From the NCBI GenBank assembly GCA_019915015.1, contig JAHBBC010000020.1:124001-188000 (forward strand): 64,000 nucleotides of DNA, in the 5' to 3' direction. Position numbers and translations under genes: made by a program. This document shows, piece by piece, positions 34,161 to 48,344 of this stretch (position 1 is its first letter; the number at the start of each line of letters is the position of its first letter). A model generated the notes under the pieces. It searched no databases. It worked only from the letters and a program-made list of their open reading frames with translations, and was not told the origin of the DNA. This DNA is from Auriscalpium vulgare. Its lineage: Eukaryota; Basidiomycota; Agaricomycetes; Russulales; Auriscalpiaceae.

Positions 34161-34551
34161 TCAACAAGATTCCTTCCCACCGACACGCCATGAAATCTCC
34201 ATCCCCAGCACAGCCTCTCTACGCCTGCGCACCTGCACCCCATCCAGCCTGCACCCCACCGAGGTGAGCACCCGCACACCGCACGCCCGCGTTCCTCTCC
34301 AGACCACGCGCCAGCGCGCTGCACTGGCCGCCCACCGGGAACGCCACGCAGACGGCCCATACATATCTCGAGATCCACACGCGCAGGGAGGACTCAGCCG
34401 GCCGGCGCTCCCACGGAACTGCTGCCGGGCCTACAAACGTGATCGACACTGCGCAGGGCGTGCACGCGCTGCAGCGGCCCCTGCAGCAGTCTACGACGCG
34501 CACATGGAGGCACGCCGATGCCCGCGCCGCCACGGTGCGTGTGGCTAGGAA
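34161..34551 (-). pseudogene. C-terminal part of the F-box gene split by the KDZ element
   Basis: Read on the minus strand, this is the family tail in three frames because of indels: VHALRSV, then APAG, stop, LPARVDLE; next ALARGLERNAGV; last VGCRLDGVQVRRRREAVLGM. Its 5' edge is the 8 bp repeat at 34544-34551. The missing N-terminal part ends at the other copy of that repeat (48337-48344). See the entry at 48337-49473. Confidence 0.8.
34544..34551. other. Target-site duplication, left
   Basis: GCTAGGAA, identical to 48337-48344. It flanks the KDZ element exactly where the F-box gene is interrupted. Confidence 0.8.
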
Positions 34552-34556
34552 GAGCC

Positions 34557-34569
34557 GTGTCAGTAGTTA
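34557..34569 (+). repeat. Left terminal inverted repeat of the KDZ element
   Basis: GTGTCAGTAGTTA, starting six bases from the inferred element end. It pairs with 48320-48332. Confidence 0.5.
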
Positions 34570-34775
34570 AGGTAACTATATGACTGGAGTAGTAGCGAAA
34601 TGAAAGTACCGCTAGTGGCTGGTCCCATTACTTTACTGCGTGACTACAACTCCAGGCCCTTCAATGCAGCAGTGGATCCCTGCTCCAGCTGTCGTGTAGT
34701 ATTAACTATGTACTGAAGATCCTGTAGTAATCACCCTGCACTATGTAGTAGATATGGTTCAAGACGGCATAGTAA

Positions 34776-36500
34776 ATACTTCTGCCTCGCCAGTGCGGTC
34801 CGAAAGCGCGCAGTAAATACTTTAGGCGCGCAGTAAATATCCCTGCGATTGTTGCAGGCCTGTAGGGACGTCTCAGTAAATACTTCCGCCGCTCTAGTGC
34901 GGTCCGATTGCGCGCAGTAAATACTTTAGGCCCGCAGTAAATATCCCTGCGATTGTTGCAGGCCTGTAGGGACGTCTCAGTAAATACTTCCGCCGCTCTA
35001 GTGCGGTCCGATTGCGCGCAGTAAATACTTTAGGCCCGCAGTAAATATTACTGCGATTGTTGCAGGCCTGTAGGGACGTCTCAGTAAATACTTCCGCCGC
35101 TCTAGTGCGGTCCGATAGCGCGCAGTAAATACTTTAGGCCTGCAGTAAATATTACTGCGATTGTTGCAGGCCTGTAGGGACGTCTCAGTAAGTACTTCCG
35201 CCGCTCTAGTGCGGTCCGATTGCGCGCAGTAAATACTTTAGGCCCGCAGTAAATATTACTGCGATTGTTGCAGGCCTGTAGGGACGTCTCAGTAAATACT
35301 TCCGCCGCTCTAGTGCGGTCCGATTGCGCGCAGTAAATACTTTAGGCCCGCAGTAAATATTACTGCGATTGTTGCAGGCCTGTAGGGACGTCTCAGTAAA
35401 TACTTCCGCCGCTCTAGTGCGGTCCGATAGCGCGCAGTAAATACTTTAGGCCTGCAGTAAATATTACTGCGATTGTTGCAGGCCTGTAGGGACGTCTCAG
35501 TAAATACTTCCGCCGCTCTAGTGCGGTCCGATTGCGCGCAGTAAATACTTTAGGCCCGCAGTAAATATTACTGCGATTGTTGCAGGCCTGTAGGGACGTC
35601 TCAGTAAATACTTCCGCCGCTCTAGTGCGGTCCGATAGCGCGCAGTAAATACTTTAGGCCTGCAGTAAATATTACTGCGATTGTTGCAGGCCTGTAGGGA
35701 CGTCTCAGTAAGTACTTCCGCCGCTCTAGTGCGGTCCGATTGCGCGCAGTAAATACTTTAGGCCCGCAGTAAATATTACTGCGATTGTTGCAGGCCTGTA
35801 GGGACGTCTCAGTAAATATTCCGCCGCTCTAGTTTGGTCCGATAGTAAATACTTTAGGCCCGCAGTAAATATTCCTGCAATTGTTGCAGGCCTGTAGGGA
35901 CGTCCCAGTAAATATTCCGCCGCTCTAGTTTGGTCCGATAGTAAATACTTTAGGCCCGCAGTAAATATTCCTGCAATTGTTGCAGGCCTGTAGGGACGTC
36001 TCAGTAAATACTTCCGCCGCTCTAGTGCGGTCCGATAGCGCGCCGTAAATACTTTAGGCCCGCAGTAAATATTACTGCGATTGTTGCAGGCCTGTAGGGA
36101 CGTCTCAGTAAATAATTCCGCCGCTCTAGTGCGGTCCGATTGCGCGCAGTAAATACTTTAGGCCCGCAGTAAATATTACTGCAGCTGTTGTAGGCCTGTA
36201 GGGACGTCTCAGTAAATACTTCTGCCGCTCTAGTGCGGTCCGATAGCGCACAGTAAATACTTTAGGCCCGCAGTAAATATTCCTGCAATTGTTGCAGGCC
36301 TGTAGGGACGTCTCAGTAAACATCGGAACATTACGGCCACTCAGGCATCTCGCTTTCAAAGCGAGATGCCTGAGTGGCCGTAATCCCCCGACGAGCGCTT
36401 ATCTAGTGTGGTCCGATAGTAAATACTTTAGGCCCGCAGTAAATATTCCTGCAATTGTTGCAGGCCTGTAGGGACGTCTCAGTAAATACTTCAGCCATGA
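34776..36500 (+). repeat. Left subterminal tandem array, 104 bp unit
   Basis: About 16-17 head-to-tail units. Most have a period of exactly 104 bp (TCTCAG at 34871, 34975, 35079, 35183, 35287 and so on); a few near 35807-36000 are shorter. Each unit contains AGTAAATACTTCCGCCGC, AGTAAATACTTTAGGC and AGTAAATATTACTGCG. No open gene is encoded. Its place just inside one end of the transposon, and the motif shared with the right array, fit a transposase-binding or replication-control function. Confidence 0.9.
36330..36384. repeat. Perfect 27 bp palindrome inside the array
   Basis: Two 27-base arms (36330-36356 and 36358-36384) are exact reverse complements around a single C. The arm begins ATTACGGCCACTCAGG and ends CTCGCTTT. 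It interrupts one 104 bp unit and resembles nothing else in the window. It could extrude a cruciform or form an RNA hairpin. Confidence 0.9.
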
Positions 36501-36539
36501 TAGTATGATCCTAAATCATGCACCGGTAAATACTTCTAC

Positions 36540-37153
36540 TTCGCTAACAAGCCCAATATAGTATTTACTACAGTGTTGGCAACTCGGAGCGAATCGTCTA
36601 AGTCGTGCTGTGTGAATCCTACGCGCGCGTGCTTAGCATTCCGCTGAGCTCTGGTCGGAGCACAAGTCAGCTCGCCACGGCACATCACTCTAGAGGCACA
36701 GGGACAACAAATAGTTTGATCAATATTACGTAGATACATGGTCGCGCTCGTCGCGCGCAACATCTCATGCAAACGCTAGACATAATGCTATGGAAATCCC
36801 CGAGGGACAGTGGAGCGGAGCTACAACGGAACGATGCGTGTTGAAACGATCAGGAAGGTATACGATGACGCGTGTTGGAACGCGGAATGAGAAAAATGAA
36901 AGAAGCCACGTGTTGAACGTTGAGATGTTGAAGCGAGTGAGAAGGAGATCTTGAAGGCGTCGCACGTTGAGGCGAGCCGGCGCGCGTTGAGGCGAGAATT
37001 ACTGAAATGTTGAGGCGAGGTTTGCTGAAATGTTGAGCTGAGGTTTACTGAACGGAGTGCATGCGGCAACAACGCGGGATGAACATTCATTTACGTGTCG
37101 TCCGTCGCCTAGTACATTTGATCAGCGATATATTTCCTGACATCAGATAGTAC
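36540..37153. other. Spacer with GTTGAGGCGAG repeats
   Basis: No gene. Bases 36900-37060 contain several imperfect copies of TGTTGAGGCGAGGTTTGCTG-like sequence, downstream (3') of the minus-strand gene. Confidence 0.5.
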
Positions 37154-39906
37154 TCACTTCTTACTATCCGGAAGCTTCTCTTCTGCCTGAGCCTGCGCTG
37201 CACGCTTCTGCGATGTGCGTGCCTTGCTGGCAGGGGCCTCAACCGGTGCGACGCGCTTCTTCTGCGAGGCGCGGGTCGTCTTGCCGGCACCAGCGGCCTC
37301 TGGCGGACTTGCTGATGTCTGCACCACACTCAGAGCGATGCGCTTCACCATATTGCGTCCTTTGCTGGCAGGAGCCGTCGCGAGACCGGGGCTGTTCTCC
37401 GTGTTCGGGGCATCGCTGCGCAGATGCGCGACCATCTGCTCGAGAACCCAGACGACATCTTCCACAGCCGACTCCCACTCGCGCATCTCCTGGTCCCCCT
37501 CCGCTGCCGTGTGCCACCAGCAGAGCGCGAAGAGAATGAGCTCAAAGCCGGTCCGCCCGCCTTTCAAGCATGCCTGCCATCCTTCGAGCGGAGTGGACAC
37601 GTCACGCTTCAGCGGCCAGTCCTGGCCTCGCCACTCCGGTTGCAAACCAATCCACCAGGCGCGCCAGCACTCCGAGAAGTCCGATACATCGTCGATCTCG
37701 GGCGTCTTCGCAAGGTCGCGGCTGCGAAGCCAACGGGTGACTTGGGCAGGGCGTGCGGTGGCCGAGAGCTGGAATTGCTTTCCCTAGCAAACCGTGAGCC
37801 GCCTTTGCCATCTCCGATGAACAAACTGACGCACCTTTCCTGTCTGGAAACCGAGAATCTCCTCCATCTTCGCCCACAACTCTACTGCCAGCCCCCACGT
37901 GTCATCCTCTATAGCCTCCTCGAGATGCTTGTGATCGTTGACGATCCACGATGGCCGTGCGATTGTCTTCCCATCGTCGGGGCTCGTGGCGTCTTCTTCG
38001 TCGTTGTCAACAGAGTCGGTTGACGCGCTCTTCTCACTGTTCAACGCCTCGGGTCTGAGTGGCTGCAGGTCGGCGTTGGGAGGAGCAGCTGTTCTGGACG
38101 ATGCTGCTGATGAGGGTGTGCAATCGGGAGGTGCGTTGGTGGTCAAGGAAGGGAGGAGGGGTTCTGTGCGATCAGGAGCGGTGTCGGTGGTTGATGAAGG
38201 GGGGAGGAGTTCCGTTGATGCGGAGTGCCTTGCCTGTTCATCAGCGCTGGACACTGCCTGCTCGTGCGGCACCCTGAAAATAACTTGAGTGAGCATTTTA
38301 GTACTCAGAAGAAAGGAACACGACATACTGGTCGTTGGGCTCACTGACAACCAGCGCTTTCAGCCTCGCAGAATGTCGTGGAGGCCCGACGTCATCTCCC
38401 AGCGCCGCCAACTTTGCCCGCTTCACCTCCCTCTCCGTCGGCGTCTTCTCCTCCGGTGCGAAGAACGGCTGGTCAAGTTTGAGCGCCTTGAGCAGCTCCT
38501 TGTTTCGTGCGATGTTGTCGAGGCGCTCTTGCTCGTATGGGGTGATACCGTGGGATATGAGGGGAAGCGCGGGTGCGTCTGGATCAGTATCGTTGTCAGC
38601 TTCGAAGTCCACCTCCTCGTCGTCTTCTTCATCATCGCTATCTCCGTTGCTAGTGTCGTCAAGAGCTCGGGCCTTGCGTTTCTTCCCCTTCAAGCCCGCA
38701 CCCTTCTCTGCGGTCGCCGGCGCATCGATTGGTGAGTCGACTGTGCCTGATTTGGCGTGCACAGCCTCATCTGACTCGGTCTCAGCGGGCTGCGAGCCAA
38801 AGGGAGTCGTCGACGTGTCACGCGCTGCGGCAGTATGAGAAGCTAGGATCGCTTGGTGAGTACTGAAACAAGCAAGGACGGCCAATTTCGACTTACCGTA
38901 GACGGCCTGCAGGAAGTTCCGAAAGGGCGCTTCAACACCGTCTTTGAAATTGGGGTACATGGTGGAAAAGTTGCGGCCGTCTTCCAAGCTCGAATGGACG
39001 CTGCGGCGCGGATACATCGCGGTGAGTACACAGCGCATTTTACGACGATATGTACTCACGAGTATGTCATGATCTTGCCGCCATGCTCAGGACTCGGGCC
39101 GCCAAAGATCATCGTGCAATGCCACCCCGTCAAGTCGTGAATCTCCCCTACCGCAATAGCTGCGGTTCTGGGGAGCTTCTCAATCTTTCTGTTGCGTCAG
39201 GTGAGTTCATTGTTTTACAGAGACAAGCGGGAGACTTACTCTTGGTACTGTCGCGCCTTCAATGCCCCGCTCTCATCGGGTCCCGGGCTGTTGTCGTCAT
39301 CCGGCGAGCCGTCGCAGCCCTCGTCCTCGTCAACCTGTTCGCCGTTGCGGACTTTGGCAACGAGGCTCTTAACCTCGTCGGTCTCGGCTTCCAGCAACTC
39401 ACGGCACTTGCGGTTGCGGAACACAAGCTCGGTGACAGCTTCTTCATCGTCGGGCTTCTTCTCCAGGTACTCCTTCCAGGCCGCCTCGACATCCGCCTTC
39501 AACTTGTCTTTCCAGAAGAGCTGCTGGTAGACCTGGTAGTCGGACTTCTTCCGTGTCTGCTTACCAGTCAGATTGAGGACGCCACGTCGACCGGGTCCTT
39601 TGGCGGCGCGGGGCGTTCCGCGGGAATTGTTATTGAACCACTGCTTTAGACGCTGAATGACATGACGTGTCGTAAGTCCCACTTCTCCTTCTTCATACAG
39701 ACGACATGGCTTACCGTTCGTATAGGCGGCTGACCTTTCACAGGCGGGCCGGCGTCGGTGTCGTCCGTCTCCGGCCATCTCGCAAGCCAGGCGGAAAACA
39801 AGTGAGGCCAGAAGTCGGCGATAGAAAGCGAGCCTCCGCTCTGGGCCTCGCGGTAGGTGACTATATATTCCTTGAGAAAAGCGGCCTGCTCGCGGTTTGC
39901 CCACAT
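37154..39906 (-). CDS. KDZ-element accessory protein with homeodomain-like WFNN motif
   Basis: Predicted 806 aa. Exons: 39715-39906, 39240-39652, 39060-39188, 38897-39000, 38329-38842, 37835-38273, 37154-37783; all seven join in phase with introns of 51-62 nt. The N-terminus has a W/F-rich helical domain (MWANREQAAFLKEY, FWPHLFSAWLARWPE) leading to RLKQWFNNNSRG, which recalls helix 3 of homeodomains. A basic segment (GRRGVLNLTGKQTRKKS) follows, then a nuclear-signal-like GKKRKAR beside an acidic run (DSDDEEDDEEVDF). The C-terminal exon holds WRAWWIGLQPEWRGQDW and a lysine-rich end. Similar proteins are, from memory, common near transposons in agaricomycetes. A DNA-binding nuclear partner of the transposase is inferred, not shown. 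Confidence 0.8.
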
Positions 39907-40200
39907 GAGGAACTGGTGGGCCGGGCGACGGGAATGGATGGGTGGTGGGGCAAAGGTGGGTTGTGGGACGACAGCGGAAGTTATTACTGATTTCCCTGGA
40001 GTAAAGAAAACCCCGACAGGTCAGCGTAGTGATGGTGTAACTCCGCCAAATCACTACGATCTCCTGGATCGATTTCACTACGGCTTGCGCGGGGTCTTGG
40101 CCGCGCGATATATTTATAAGGCAAGTCGATCAGTCTCCCTTGTTCACTACCACATCACTATCCGATCCCTTCCCTCGCGCAGCGCTCAATTGCCCCAAGT
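39907..40200. promoter_or_regulatory. Divergent promoter inside the KDZ element
   Basis: The 294 bp between two outward-facing genes. TATATTTATAAGG at 40109-40121 lies 80-92 bases before the plus-strand start, a good TATA box for that gene. No equally clear box was found for the minus-strand gene. Confidence 0.55.
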
Positions 40201-41181
40201 ATGACCTCCTTCCCTGTCGACGTCCAAGAGGCTGCAGAGCCAGCCGGTACGCTCCCTCGATGCTGCGCAGATTTGGTTCTGATTTCTATCTTGCCACTTA
40301 GCGGCTACAAAGCTCGAGCGCCTCCCGACCTACACAGAGGCTCCAATCCCTGGCAAATGGAAGTACTATGCCCTGGTGGATACCCGGTTCCGCGGCATAT
40401 ACACTGACTGGTACGTCTTCTTCACAATCACGGCGGCCCCTCGTGCTAATATCCTGCTAGGGTGGTTGTTGGCCCCGTCGCTGCCGCTCTCAATGGCACG
40501 GTCAAAAAGTGCGTGTCGTTCGCTGACGCGATGAAGGCTATGAACGACAATTCCACTGCGATGGAAATGCTCGCAGCGGCGATGGGCAGTGTCGCCCTCA
40601 CCGACGCAACGAGTTCCGGCGGTTCCTCGGCGGCCGGCGCCACCGGCGCCACCGGCGCCACCGGCGCCACCGGCGCCGCGGACGCTGTCGCCACCAACAT
40701 TGCCGCGCACGGCGCTCAAGCTCCCGTTCAAACCGCCAACAATCAGGCCAGCTTGCAAGGCAACGAGGCTGGCTCGCAAGATGACGGGTTGGGCTCCGAT
40801 GACAGTTCGACGGGAACATCCGACGGCGCGGAGAATGCGGCTGAGCATGGCTTGGTCGCACTGATTCCCACTGCGGAAGAAATTGGTACGTCTCCTTGTT
40901 TCTCTCTCTTCGTTCTTATTGACACCTCATACAGAGCAGGCTCGTCACGAAGAGCGTGGCAGTCGTCCTGGTGGGGGGTGGCCCTACCTTGCGGTCGCCC
41001 GCGGGCACAGGACCGGTGTCTTTGCGAATGGGTACGTCGTCCACCTTTCAGGTTCCCTTCGCATTTTCTGACTAAATGCAGGCCTGCGGCTACGGCACTT
41101 ATTGTCGGGTTCCCCGGCGCCTCTGCCATAGGATTCCGTACGGTTGCGGGCGGGTATTTGTGGATGCACCCTGAAGCATGA
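40201..41181 (+). CDS. Protein with two RNase H1 N-terminal-like domains
   Basis: Predicted 258 aa. Exons: 40201-40246, 40302-40410, 40461-40885, 40935-41031, 41082-41181, with strong GTACGT donors and consistent phases. Residues about 28-80 (KWKYYALVDTRFRGIYTDW, then GPVAAALNGTVKKCVSF) match the pattern of the RNase H1 N-terminal hybrid-binding domain: YYAV, G-I/V-Y-x-x-W, and a segment ending in a Phe/Thr-rich strand. A second, shorter copy lies near the C-terminus (WPYLAVARGHRTGVFANG). Between them is a low-complexity linker with GATGATGAT repeats from a 9 bp minisatellite. No catalytic RNase H domain follows. Binding to RNA/DNA hybrids or double-stranded nucleic acid is a family-based inference. 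Confidence 0.75.
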
Positions 41182-41658
41182 AGTGTAGACTAGGAAATGT
41201 CGAGGCTCATAGAACAATATATGCAGCATGCGCTACTTTGGTGTCCTATATAAGCGTGATCGTGTCCGAAAAGTGGGGTGTTTTTCCGACAGGTGAACGT
41301 CTTCGGGCTTGAGTTCAGTAGTAAAGACATGTCCGGGTGTGAAAGAGGTGTCTCAACCACTGAAAATGTCGTATATTGGGAGAACCAGCGAATGCCTTGG
41401 CTCCGGTACACCTAGGACATTATCTAGGACCATGCCCCTATCATAAAGTAGACGACTTGGGCAGAACTGTGCGGGAGTGCCCAAGGAGCTGTACGAGTAG
41501 CCAAGATTCAGCATGGCGCGCGACCAACACTGCTGGTCACTTGTTTGACTCTTGCTGCGACAACCAACATCCCATCCCATCCCATCCATCCCTGATCCTC
41601 CACCTCTTCTGGCTCCTGGAAAACATTTCTCTGGTCCGTCTTGTGACTGCTCACGTTG

Positions 41659-42314
41659 ATGGGGAACAATCGGCGGCAAAACGACTACAAGAAGTACGTG
41701 AACCGCACCGCTATCGCCCCTTCGTTCTCCTCCACAGCTCACTGTATCACTCCTAATAGACATCGCACGAAACGGCTAGATTACCAGCGGCAATACAATC
41801 TGGTCAAACGTGCCAGCCGTCGCAAGGTCAGCAAGGAGGAGCGTCATCGAGTGGACCAGCTCAAGAAGGTGTCGCTTCATTTTGGTTTGACCCGGTGCGT
41901 AGCACTTTCTTTTGATGATCGCTAGGCACTGAACATGCTATACGTATACGCAGACCATATGACTGTGAAATTGCGTGCAATTGGAAGGCAGCGGACCCTC
42001 TGCGCACACCAGACATGGCTCGCTTCGAGGACGAGCGCTGGACCGAGTGGATCACATTCCGCGACGACATGAAGGCATTCTCTCCGGACGACTGGCTTTC
42101 GCGATACATTGCAGCTGTGCGTGCTGCGATAGAGGACCAGCAAGATGTCGCTCGGGAGGTCATTAATCACCAGGCCTCGAGCGACGCTGACGTCCATCGT
42201 CAGCGAAGGTACATTGCCGCCTTGCATCAGGAAATCGAACTCATACAGCGCGGCATTGACACATATGAAGCTGCCCTGTACAACGAAGCCTTCATATTCG
42301 GAGGTCGGCGGTGA
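41659..42314 (+). CDS. Small basic protein of the KDZ element
   Basis: Predicted 176 aa. Exons 41659-41693, 41760-41894 and 41954-42314 join in phase (2, then 2). The N-terminal third is strongly basic (MGNNRRQNDYKK, KRASRRKVSKEERHR), the rest acidic and helical with a heptad-like end (ALHQEIELIQRGIDTYEAAL). This basic-then-helical layout suggests nucleic-acid binding and dimerisation, but no named domain is recognised. It lies 205 bases upstream of the transposase gene in the same direction. Confidence 0.65.
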
Positions 42315-42519
42315 GTCCTCGCCGCACACTCTGCCTGACTATTCACTCAGGTCAGTTTCTGCAGTGTCCGCATGGCATATTTTAAGAAGATGTATGGGTT
42401 CTGACTGTACATTGTCGTGGCAGACCGCTCGAGGCACTGGCAGTTAGACTGTACTCGCTGTACATATGCTCGGTATTTGATTATGTCATACTGGCTGTCT
42501 CTTCGACTTGTCCACCACG

Positions 42520-45500
42520 ATGCCGCGAGGCGGGAAACGCAAGCACCGCGCCGCAGTCATCATTCCATCTGAGGCCAGACAGCCCAGACAGACTGTTACA
42601 TCGACACATGTCAACATTGCGGTAGCTGGCAGCAACCGGAGGCGAAAGACGAGCCACAAGACATCTCATTACACGGACACTGTCCTCACACCAACGGAGC
42701 TAGCCGATGCCCTTCCCCCAGAGCCCTCCGCACCCGCCGATGCCTTGAATATAACTGAAGACCCTTCGCTCGAAGGCCAGTCGCTGGGAGTGCACGTTGA
42801 GGACATAGTACGGCGGCGGCGGCGGCGGCACAAGCGCGTACGTGTATTCTCCTCTGTTCCTGTGCGTTACTGATGACTAGCAGTCAAGCGGCAAGCCCAT
42901 AACAGACTGGATACCCTTCCGGGGTATCTATTTGGATGAAATTATGCGGTTAGAAGGTCTCGGCGAGGATGAAGTGTTGCCTCCATGCAGCGGATGCAAG
43001 ACCGCACTCGGTGAGCTGAGGTGCACGGACTGCATGACCGGGAGTCGACTGTGCTCCCCTTGCATCGTCTCCGCACACTGTGGGCTCCCCTTTCACCGAA
43101 TAGAGGTGCGCTTTCATTATCTTGAGTTGAGGAGGTGCTGAACAGCGAGTAGAAATGGAACGGCATCTTCCACGAGAAGTTCACGTTGCGTGAAGCCGGT
43201 CTCCGCATTCAACTCGGCCACGACGGTCAGCCTTGTCCACACCCGTACCAAAAGCCGGCACCTATGACGGTCATTGATGTCAGCGGCGTGCACGAGGTCC
43301 AGATCGACTTCTGCGCTTGCGGCATTGTCGGTTCTCATCACCACACAGTCCAACTCCTCCGCGCACGCCTGTGGCCAGCAACAACAGAGCGCCCGCAAAC
43401 GGCGGTGACTCTGCGCACGCTCAGAGGTTTCCATGCGATGACGGTGCAGAGCAAATTGAATGCGTATGACTACTGGTGCAGCCTTGTGCGGCTCACGGAC
43501 GGAATTGGAACGCGTGTTCCCAAGGTACATGTCTCTCAATTCAGTCGTGTCTTTCTCTACTGACCATAGTGTTCACAGTACCGCTACAGAGAGTTCATAC
43601 GCTCTGTGCGGTTCTTTCGACACATCCGAGCTCTCAAGCGTGCCGGTCGCGGGCACGATCCTGCGGGCATCGAGGCTACGAGGCACGGCGAATTAGTGGT
43701 CCAGTGCCCGCTCTGTCCGCAGCCGGGCATCAATATGCCCGATGGGTGGGAGAATGTTCCTGAAGACGAGAGGTGCGTCTGATGCGCCTTAATCATTTGG
43801 GCGCACATTCATATCGCTTGCGTTCAGATGGAAGCACGCCTTGTTTCTTGCCGTCGACGCCAACTTCAAGCTCAAACTCAAGAACCGGAAGCTCGTGGAC
43901 ACGGAGCTCGCACCAGGCTGGGGTTATTTCGTCGAGCAAGGCCCGTACAACGAGCACTGCGAGAAGTACAAGTCGGAGCCGGAGGTAAGTCCAATATCAC
44001 CGGTCATCAGTATCGTCTGATGGTCTGATATATCTCCGCAGATCAAATATTGCGACTCCAATCACTCGGCTATCGACCATGCCAACCTCCCCGCACAGCG
44101 CCGCTTCAGTGTCAACGGTGTCGGCGCGGTCATTTGCTCCCGCCATTGCTACTATCTTCGTCACGGCGTAGGGGACTTACTCTTCGGTGAAAGGTGAGTA
44201 GGATTATTTTCAATGTAGTCGCTTACTGAGACAGTCGGGCAGATACGCTAGCATGGATTACATGCTCCTTTCGGCTCTTGCGCTATCAGCGCCGAAGATC
44301 AAGACACTGTACATTTCATATGATATTGCGTGTTCATTTTCCAAGAACTTCGACGTCCGGCAGAAGAGGTACCCGGAGCATATTCGTATCGACATTCTTG
44401 AGGCACTGCGCCTCATATGGGCCGTCCCCAAATTCCATCTCATCGCGCACGGCCCCAAGTGCCAGACAAAGTACTCGCTCAACAACATATTTGGTGTGGG
44501 CCGAACGCATGGTGAGGGAATCGAGGGCGGATGGTCAGACTTGAATGGGGTCGCGCTGAGCACGCGGGAGATGACCGGGGCATCGCGTCACGAGAGCATT
44601 GACGACAGTCTGGGCGCCATCAATTGGCGCAAGACGATATCAATTCGTACGTCTAGCCTCCCTATCCGATATTGATCCGGGAATCTAACGGTGTCGCAGC
44701 TCGACTGGTGAAGAAGAGCCTCAAGGTAGCGTTCGAAGCTCTGGAAACGCAGCGGCCAGCCTTTGCGGAGGCAAGCGAGAACATACCCGTCGAGACTCAG
44801 CAGGAGTGGGCCGCAATGATGCGCGCATACGATGCGGATCGAAACGCACCGAATCCGTACGAGGAACCCGTCGTATGTATGTCTCAGTTATTGTACCTGA
44901 CCTGATTTGGGCTGCGCTCATATGTTCTTCCCTTAGCTACGTCTATGGTTGATGTCCGCTTGGAGCTCGCCGAGGAAGAGGCAAGAGAAGCAGCCGAGGG
45001 ACAGCTTGCCCCCCATGAGACGACGGCAAGCATGTTCTTGACGGTCGGGTTCGAGCTCGAAGAACAACAGTGCGTGTGCTCGTCTCCTGCGTGTGAGTTG
45101 TGCCTAACCAGATTGCTAGGCGACTCGTGCGAGAAAAGGCTCGGAGTGTCCGCGCGACGGCTCGCATACCAGCAGAAGGCGCAAGTAAATTGAAGACGCC
45201 AAAGGACAGACACAACAGTGCTGAGAAGGTGGCTCTCAAGGAGAAACAGACGATCCTTCGGCATCGCATCAACAATTGGCGCCATATTCAACAGCTATAC
45301 ATCCCTTGCGCTAGCGCACTGCTCTCTCAAGCTTCCGCCGCTTCAGACCCTTCCCAGGCGACTGACGACAACGCCGCGGCAGTCGATCATCCAGAGAACG
45401 AGATCCTCTACCTGCCGTCGCAGCTTCCTGCGGAGCTCCGTGCAACGGGCTGCGTGCCCGGTTTGGTTCAGAAGGAGTTGAAGCTGCGATTGGGGCAAGT

Positions 45501-46550
45501 GGAGGACGCCCTGTATCAGGTGAGTCGAGCACACGTCGAGCATCCTTCTAGAGTTGAGGCTAAACTGAAAGCTCAGGTCCGTCGCTCCCTACGGATACGA
45601 CATACCCACGTACAATTCAAGCGCGTCCACATTGCTGGTCCTGGGCAGAAGGCAAACACACGCGCACGCAACTACATCACCCGACTGATGGAGAAGGCCA
45701 CTCGTCATGTCCAGCGCTATCGTGCCGGTTACGCCGCACTGATTGAGCTGGACCCGAACGGCGCCTGGAAACAGAAGTTCAAGGAGCTCCGAGATACCGA
45801 CGTCCGCGCACCGCGCCAGGAAGCCAACACTCTCGGCAAGGGTCACTTCGAACAGAGCTGGATATGGCGCGCCTTGCGGGCAGATGCGCGCGATATTGTT
45901 GGCATGGATGACGATGCATCGGAGGCTGAGATCACAGACAGTGAGTATTACCCCGTTATCCCTCGAACAAACAGGCTGATGTCTTTGCATCCGAAGCTGT
46001 TCGTGTTGACTGGGTGAACGCAAAGTCTCGCGTTGACCGCTGGGAGGAAGAAATCGTGCTCCTTCAAGAGGAGATGCGTCGAGCGGTGCGATTCATGGAT
46101 GCACGCGCACAGCAGTGGAGGGCGTGCATTCCCAGTCGTCCCGAGGCCCGGCCTGACATCGTATCCGGGATCAAAGCGTACGCTCATCGTCAGGCCGCTC
46201 AGTTCGATGAGCTCAGCCATTCCTTTGTGTCCATCTGGAAGCCCGTCCTTGCGCAGTTCTCTCTCCCCGACCCCTGGCCTCTCGAATCCCCATCGCCTTC
46301 TACGGACACCAATCACATCGGCGCTGGCGACGCCAATCACGATGGCGCATGCGCTGCCGTCCCGATGCACGCCGCAGACAACAGCATCGTCGTCAACGAC
46401 GACACGGACGAAGAGCTCTCAGATGCCGACGCCTCGGACGCATCTGAAGAGTCTTCCCAAGGCGACGCCTCGCATACTCGGGAGCTGGATGGTGCAGATC
46501 TTGTGACAGCTGGTGGCGACGTGCACGATGTGATGGACGACATGTGGTAG
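42520..46550 (+). CDS. KDZ-superfamily transposase with CxC2-type cysteine cluster
   Basis: Predicted 1148 aa in 12 exons: 42520-42837, 42884-43105, 43153-43524, 43579-43772, 43828-43984, 44042-44193, 44243-44646, 44700-44876, 44937-45069, 45120-45519, 45577-45940, 45997-46550. All borders are GT-AG and all phases agree. The CxC2-like cluster is in exon 2 (PCSGCKTALGELRCTDC, then CSPC and HCGLPFHRIE). Candidate catalytic positions are the D of AVDANFKL (about residue 378), the D of SYDIACSFSKN (about 500) and the E of GRTHGEGIEGGW (about 566), with VPKFHLIAHGPKCQ between. The tail is acidic. The 57 nt intron 10 has no stop and keeps frame, so it could be retained. No disabling mutation was found; probably active or recently active. 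Confidence 0.9.
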
Positions 46551-46689
46551 ATAGTGCTCGAATTGGACATGTATGCGTGAGTAGCTATGAAATGGACATA
46601 TATGAGGACTTCAGGCGCAATTTGCGACGACATGGCGTGCGCTGCGATAGGATAAGTCATTCGGCACATTCTGAGTACCGGGCACACAA

Positions 46690-48300
46690 GAAAGTTATTA
46701 CTACACCGTTGGCTAAGTCTCGGGCATGCTAAGTCTTGTGCACGCTAGTAGTAAATACTATGTCGTGGCTTGGTGGCCTGATGTACAGCGAAGTCCTAAA
46801 GCCTTGAAGCACACGAGCAAGTAATTACTACTACGTCGCAATTTGAGGCACACGAGTTAGTACTACGTCGCAACCCAGCAGCAACTCGCGAGGCACGGTA
46901 GTAATGACCATGTCATAGGTTCCCATAATTTCAGCCAAGTCCCGACTCAAATGAGTAAGTATTTACTACGTTTTGGCGCAGCGGTGGCCTGGCGTCCTCG
47001 AGGCACGCTAATATTACTATACTACTTCACAGTCTAGTAGCCTGCTGCATAAGTCTCTACAACTATCAGGAAGGCGGTAGGAGGTAATCACTATGTCTCA
47101 GAGGTGGAAAGTAATTACTGCGTACCCGTACTAGCCTGCTATCGGCAACAGGAGTATTCTCCATACAGTATTTACTATCGCTGCGAAGTAATTCCATATG
47201 CAAAAAGTAGCTACCATATCCTATCCTATGAGAAATACTACCCAGTGGAAGCCGAAGTGAATACTCTGCGCTGCGCTTCGAAGTAATCCTGTAGGTACAC
47301 AGTAAATACTCTCAGAGAAATTACCATGTAGTAGACCCTGGTGAACGTCGGAGTAAATACTATGCGCTGCGGAGTAACACTATAGGTACAAAGTAAATAG
47401 CCTAGCGGAACGCGACGTGATTACTACGCGCTGCGACAGTAAGTACAAAGTAAATACAACATCCTATGAATTATTTCCGTACAGTAGACCCTAGCGGACG
47501 TCGGAGTAAATACTACGCCCTGCGGAACAACCCTATAGGTTAAATACTACACGCTGCAACTGTAGGTACAAAGTATATACCACATCCTATGAGCAATTAC
47601 TGTACAGTAGACCCTAGCGGACGTCGGAGTAAATACTACGTACTGCGGAACAACCCTATAGGTTAAATACTACACGCTGCAACTGTAGGTACAAAGTATA
47701 TACCACATCCTATGAGCAATTACTGTACAGTAGACCCTAGCGGCGGACGTCGGAGTAAATACTACGTACTGCGGAACAACCCTATAGGTTAAATACTACA
47801 CGCTGCAACTGTAGGTACAAAGTATATACCACATCCTATGAGCAATTACTGTACAGTAGACCCTAGCGGACGTCGGAGTAAATACTACGTACTGCGGAAC
47901 AACCCTATAGGTTAAATACTACACGCTGCAACTGTAGGTACAAAGTATATACCACATCCTATGAGCAATTACTGTACAGTAGACCCTAGCGGCGGACGTT
48001 GGAGTAAATACTACGTACTGCGGAACAACCCTATAGGTTAAATACTACACGCTGCAACTGTAGGTACAAAGTATATACCACATCCTATGAGCAATTACTG
48101 TACAGTAGACCCTAGCGGACGTCGGAGTAAATACTACGCGCTGCGGAACAACCCTATAGGTACAAAATAAATATATTGTATGAGAACTACTGCCTAGTGG
48201 ACTCTAGTAGACTCCGCAGTGAATACTACGCACTGCTAGGTTGGCTACTATGATATGTACTCGTATCAGCTACTAGTGGCACTTCGTATATACTACTATT
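46690..48300 (+). repeat. Right subterminal tandem array, 123/126 bp unit
   Basis: Six well-kept units lie between about 47480 and 48160, marked by ACAGTAGACCCTAGCGG at 47481, 47604, 47727, 47853, 47976 and 48102; spacing alternates 123 and 126 because of an extra CGG. Units contain GGAGTAAATACTACG and GTTAAATACTACACGC. More diverged AGTAAATACT-bearing sequence extends left to 46690. The unit differs from the left array except for this core motif. Confidence 0.88.
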
Positions 48301-48319
48301 ATAGGTACTACTACTACTA

Positions 48320-48332
48320 TACCTACCTACAC
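48320..48332 (-). repeat. Right terminal inverted repeat of the KDZ element
   Basis: GTGTAGGTAGGTA on the minus strand, pairing with 34557-34569. Confidence 0.5.
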
Positions 48333-48336
48333 AGTT

Positions 48337-48344
48337 GCTAGGAA
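48337..48344. other. Target-site duplication, right
   Basis: GCTAGGAA, identical to 34544-34551. Confidence 0.8.

Follow-up and report, generated by a model that had tools for sequence, protein, structure and literature searches.

The 64,000-nucleotide stretch of Auriscalpium vulgare DNA examined here (the window, C20:124001-188000, within a 51.6-Mb genome of 96 contigs) carries what is very probably a complete, recently active and apparently autonomous DNA transposon of the KDZ superfamily, of the CxC2 type and Kyakuja-like. The element spans nucleotides 34552 to 48337 (13,786 bp; window coordinates on the plus strand unless noted), beginning with GAGCCGTGTCAG and ending with CACAGTTG, limits that were set by comparing it with the genome's other copies. 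This assignment draws on the sequence of its termini, a 7-bp target site duplication (TSD), a transposase whose catalytic motifs are kept, and three further genes (AP1, AP2 and AP3) that are under selection and stand in a fixed order. An earlier note on this DNA had described the element as a complete KDZ transposon, its four genes open and its ends placeable to the base, a description that is supported once its right end at 48336, and with it the length of 13785 bp, is corrected by one nucleotide.

The earlier note had taken identical 8-mers as the boundaries of the element. Indeed, the 8-mer GCTAGGAA is present on both sides, at nucleotides 34544 to 34551 and 48337 to 48344. The pair alone is little proof of the ends, and the window holds four copies of this 8-mer where 1.26 are expected, and four copies are reached in 3 of 100 shuffles. 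The ends are confirmed because other copies share the termini exactly within unrelated flanks. Genome searches with both element ends gave seven insertions that were read, five of this family and two of a second KDZ family, five of the seven having both ends on one stretch. Two of them, C10a (C10 355180-374975) and a copy at C26 179168-192670, each lie on one stretch and have both termini the same as the window copy. A further C10 insertion has its left end at 75904 and its right end at 133156, with much inserted DNA between, and a C8 insertion consists of two pieces in opposite orientation; the ends of these two insertions were paired by their matching 7-mers. The left terminus (34552 to 34581) is identical in all four of these copies and in a left end on C4, a place that carries the left end alone and was left out of the insertion count. 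The right terminus (48308 to 48337) follows from the same comparison. The one-base correction aside, no copy with different ends was present among those found.

The duplicated target sequence of the window copy is CTAGGAA, located at nucleotides 34545 to 34551 and 48338 to 48344, and the six other insertions have duplications of the same length. Those of this family, which lie in unrelated flanks, are CTAGGAA, AGGTCGA, CGAGCAA, GAAATAC and TCTGACC. The second KDZ family, which starts with GAGCCCTGTCTGTCATTAAGG and ends with CGACAGAGTTG (left ends at C4 44546 and C26 370455), has CAATGCC and GAGGTGC. In all seven insertions the base preceding the right-hand 7-mer is G, whereas the corresponding base on the left is G at the window copy only and A or C in the other six. 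Thus, the target duplication is 7 bp, and the eighth base of GCTAGGAA is the final G of the element itself, which matches the left flank by chance. An 8-bp duplication with a right end at 48336, as the earlier note expected at other copies also, would account for the 8-mer on both sides and has precedents in Zisupton-1_PGr, a Dileera element with TET/JBP from Puccinia graminis (PMC12730594), and in Cryptococcus KDZ1. This alternative is nonetheless hardly credible given that seven bases match and the eighth differs in six of seven insertions, even with the caveat that two of these six were paired through the 7-mer itself. When the joined flanks were searched for an empty allele in the same genome, they matched this locus only. 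Joining the flanks opens a single 387-amino acid frame on the minus strand, to which no weight was given; the flanks are GC-rich (0.59 and 0.65).

Two of the places found by these searches have unusual structures. At C4:16356-16411 (minus strand), a further GAGCCGT... start comes immediately after the left 51 bp of the family, an arrangement suggestive of the insertion of a related element into this left end, and the remainder of the family's left end was not found on C4 in the genome search with that end. The C8 copy is split at the equivalent of window nucleotides 43306 to 43308, within transposase exon 3, into C8:1398571-1407121 (plus strand) and a piece running from C8:1497277 down to 1492381 (minus strand). 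These halves are about 90 kb apart, in opposite orientation, and each carries the 7-bp duplication TCTGACC at its outer end, an arrangement that an inversion would be expected to produce if one of its breaks fell within the element.

The short imperfect inverted ends described in the earlier note are borne out. In this family, the inverted right end agrees with the left end at 17 of 30 positions, against 18 of 30 in the second KDZ family, and the mismatches fall in nearly the same places in both. Within the first 12 positions seven agree, for which the chance of seven or more is 0.015. At the sixth terminal base, the two ends share a G in this family and a C in the second. No long terminal inverted repeat (TIR) exists between the subterminal regions, where the longest inverted match is 15 bp.

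Inside each end lies a tandem array, with 15.1 units of 104 bp on the left (34771 to 36320) and six units of 123 bp on the right (47422 to 48161). The 10-mer AGTAAATACT occurs 38 times in the window against 0.03 expected, every copy being inside the element: 27 lie between nucleotides 34771 and 36569 (one on the minus strand) and 11 between 46750 and 48135 (two on the minus strand). It is the only 10-mer common to six ends, namely those of the window copy, the diverged C8 copy and the second KDZ family, and the 8-mers and 9-mers shared by these ends are all parts of it. Six control stretches of the window, whose base composition was not matched, have no 8-mer in common. Across the genome, AGTAAATACT is found 458 times compared to 56 for a reversed control. 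Among the first 100 matches listed, 88 fall inside nine AP1-to-KDZ spans or no more than 3 kb away from them, 10 of the 88 standing between the genes, and the other 12 are elsewhere. Since tandem copies are not independent, the strength of this evidence lies in the sharing of the 10-mer between different array units. In Ac/Ds and CACTA elements, a short motif repeated inside both ends is the transposase binding region; the element described here also has such a motif, although the superfamilies and the motifs differ. We regard AGTAAATACT as a candidate binding site. The arrays might rather be promoter or silencing elements, or the product of tandem-repeat drift, and the membership of many copies in tandem arrays is compatible with this, as is the small number of internal copies among the matches listed. 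We judge this alternative unlikely, but worth keeping in mind, as AGTAAATACT is common to the six ends of three elements even though their array units differ, and exceeds its reversed control genome-wide.

The transposase gene (42520 to 46550) has 12 exons encoding 1148 amino acids, based on a gene model and domain search. Exon 3 (43153 to 43524) carries the CxC2 cysteine cluster (PF18803; E 5.6e-37), which precedes the KDZ catalytic domain (PF18758; exons within 43828 to 44646). The latter domain matches positions 2 to 217 of a 217-position profile (E 2.2e-55; 188.2 bits versus a cut-off of 26.6), and its DANF, YDIAC and GEGIE motifs are kept. Residues D398, D518, E581 and E584 (P0006 numbering) are invariant in nine of nine aligned proteins, including that of the window, and this conservation suggests that they are the catalytic residues. 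A Foldseek search with the transposase structure model gave no match at E ≤ 0.001. The closest relatives come from A. vulgare (67-71% identity, partial proteins) and Artomyces pyxidatus, both members of the Russulales. A 2-base exon (exon 2) proposed by the gene finder was corrected by hand. Four open genes, including a 12-exon transposase with CxC2, are present as the earlier note proposed, although one transposase exon border and the 3′ end of AP2 are uncertain. When the window and C26 copies are compared, the catalytic exons and introns at nucleotides 43850 to 44900 are 93-98% identical, and the preceding 750 bp are 77-88% identical. Such high identity may reflect either a recent exchange of sequence among copies or constraint acting at the DNA level.

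The other three genes precede the transposase. AP1 (37087 to 39906, minus strand) has nine exons encoding 783 amino acids, AP2 is represented by its first three exons (40201 to 40885), and AP3 (41659 to 42404) has four exons encoding 180 amino acids. The gene finder had merged AP2 with AP3 in a single 11-exon model; AP3 was modelled separately, and AP2 was cut by hand at nucleotide 40885. Pfam searches found no family in AP1 or in AP3 (scanned on its core exon), whereas AP2 gave a weak match, RNase H1 N-terminal-like, that falls short of the cut-off (E 0.09). No Pfam match to TET/JBP was obtained among the frames and gene models of the element that were scanned. One outside relative of AP1 was found, P0001, an A. 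vulgare protein 39% identical over 88%; a profile search returned only P0001, itself part of the query, and each of these searches scored only some 7,990 candidates, those with the most words in common. All three genes are under purifying selection. The transposase, AP1 and AP2 retain their frames and GT..AG borders in the C26 copy, where AP3 exons 2 to 4 are free of stops and gaps. Between the window copy and this older C26 copy, the ratio of nonsynonymous to synonymous substitution rates (dN/dS, with 95% bootstrap interval) is 0.10 (0.08-0.13) for the KDZ transposase, 0.28 (0.22-0.35) for AP1, 0.39 (0.24-0.63) for AP2 and 0.22 (0.12-0.40) for AP3.

The gene order AP1(−) AP2(+) AP3(+) KDZ(+) is seen repeatedly across the genome, which contains at least 88 matches to AP1 (57 of 186 candidates were scored, making all AP1 counts lower bounds), 27 to AP2 and 43 to AP3. 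A KDZ match lies no more than 12 kb away, with side and strand as expected, from 26 of 36 AP1 loci, 16 of 19 AP2 loci and 35 of 43 AP3 loci, a nearness that applies to at most about 5% of the genome. The 21 exceptions include eight at 12-31 kb in the right sense and three on the left of the two C8 pieces, and the remaining exceptional loci do not fit the arrangement. These genes could be host passengers outside the transposition machinery, a view that accords with the lack of recognised domains save the weak AP2 match, and with a single-sequence fold model of AP1 that is useless (predicted local distance difference test score 37.4). Such a status is quite improbable given the constant order and strands of AP1-AP3 beside KDZ matches and the selection found in each gene. 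As an AP1 match is listed near only a minority of the 107 KDZ clusters, the AP1-AP3 set seems to mark a KDZ lineage rather than all KDZ elements.

TET/JBP has 17 matches in the genome. Six of these, at C8:1578966, C9:154498, C9:492869, C13:416026, C13:539088 and C14:947177, each have a KDZ match on the opposite strand some 4.3 kb away, and by their arrangement these loci appear to represent another KDZ family, in which TET takes the place of AP1.

Copy C10a indicates how recently the family has moved. With a nested insert excluded, it differs from the window copy by 30 mismatches over 13,602 aligned bases, and 29 of these mismatches, along with 9 of 11 insertions or deletions (indels), fall in the left repeat region (34771 to 36700). 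Beyond nucleotide 36700 (11,628 aligned bases), there are one mismatch (at 48314), a 1-bp indel and a 9-bp indel. This near-identity outside the left repeat region points to recent movement of the family. It is also what a segmental duplication or an assembly error would produce, but either origin is very improbable, as the C10 copy has unrelated flanks, a different 7-bp duplication and a Copia insertion of its own. The latter (C10:363093-369078) is a 5,986-bp long terminal repeat (LTR) retrotransposon nested in the copy, with AP3 on one side and the transposase on the other; its 482-bp LTRs are identical, and it was named from its open 1440-amino acid frame.

If the element moves as its sequence would suggest, the transposase (or AP1) may bind the AGTAAATACT arrays inside both ends, and the bound protein would then pair the two ends. 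Cutting would occur at 5′-GA...TG-3′, and the element would be joined to target DNA with a 7-base stagger, whose repair would yield the duplication. AP1-AP3 would assist transposition in some manner. More broadly, we tentatively propose, at somewhat less than even likelihood, a KDZ lineage that moves by a four-protein machine (transposase plus AP1, AP2 and AP3) recognising the near-palindromic 10-bp AGTAAATACT in the fast-changing arrays of both ends, such that the signal stays fixed between families as the array units turn over.

Zisupton elements have 8-bp TSDs, unlike the seven insertions read here, and the same difference separates the element from Dileera Zisupton-1_PGr, which also belongs to the KDZ superfamily. 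Kojima 2025 (PMC12730594) describes Kyakuja of Agaricomycotina as having 7-bp TSDs, 5′-CA..TG-3′ termini and no TIRs, with TET/JBP families in five orders, among them Russulales. The element resembles Kyakuja, as there described, in its KDZ transposase, its 7-bp TSD (seven of seven insertions), its ...TG-3′ end and its occurrence in mushroom-forming fungi. It differs in having GA at the 5′ end, as does the second family, and three other genes and no TET/JBP match where the Kyakuja families described carry a TET/JBP gene; its short imperfect inverted end may be a further difference. It is a new KDZ family, Kyakuja-like by its 7-bp duplication, and is filed under KDZ rather than Kyakuja because its 5′ end is GA. 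The KDZ1-3 elements of Cryptococcus neoformans, according to PMC12810828, likewise have a KDZ transposase and defined ends, are about 9-11 kb in length, and have been shown to move by insertion into a reporter gene. Unlike the CxC2 element described here, they are of the CxC1 type, with TIRs of 139-241 bp and TSDs of 8 bp (KDZ1) or 4-8 bp (KDZ2 and KDZ3). With Kyakuja and Cryptococcus ends published in these two sources, the earlier note's description of KDZ ends as usually poorly known holds only in part. The genome paper on Marasmius oreades states that TIR motifs of KDZ and Plavaka elements are characterised in its supplement (PMC8290104), and passages of a later M. oreades paper name Dileera once, for load variation, and do not name Kyakuja (PMC9674265). 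The literature searched on KDZ subterminal and Kyakuja accessory features gave no account of AGTAAATACT or the helper genes; Iyer et al. 2014 and Repbase may hold some.

KDZ elements are common in mushroom genomes, and the literature searched says little about their ends, signals or helper genes. The copies within a single genome define the ends exactly and point to a 7-bp stagger, a candidate recognition signal common to two families, and a conserved set of helper genes. It is this shared end signal, together with the gene set, that makes the element of interest.
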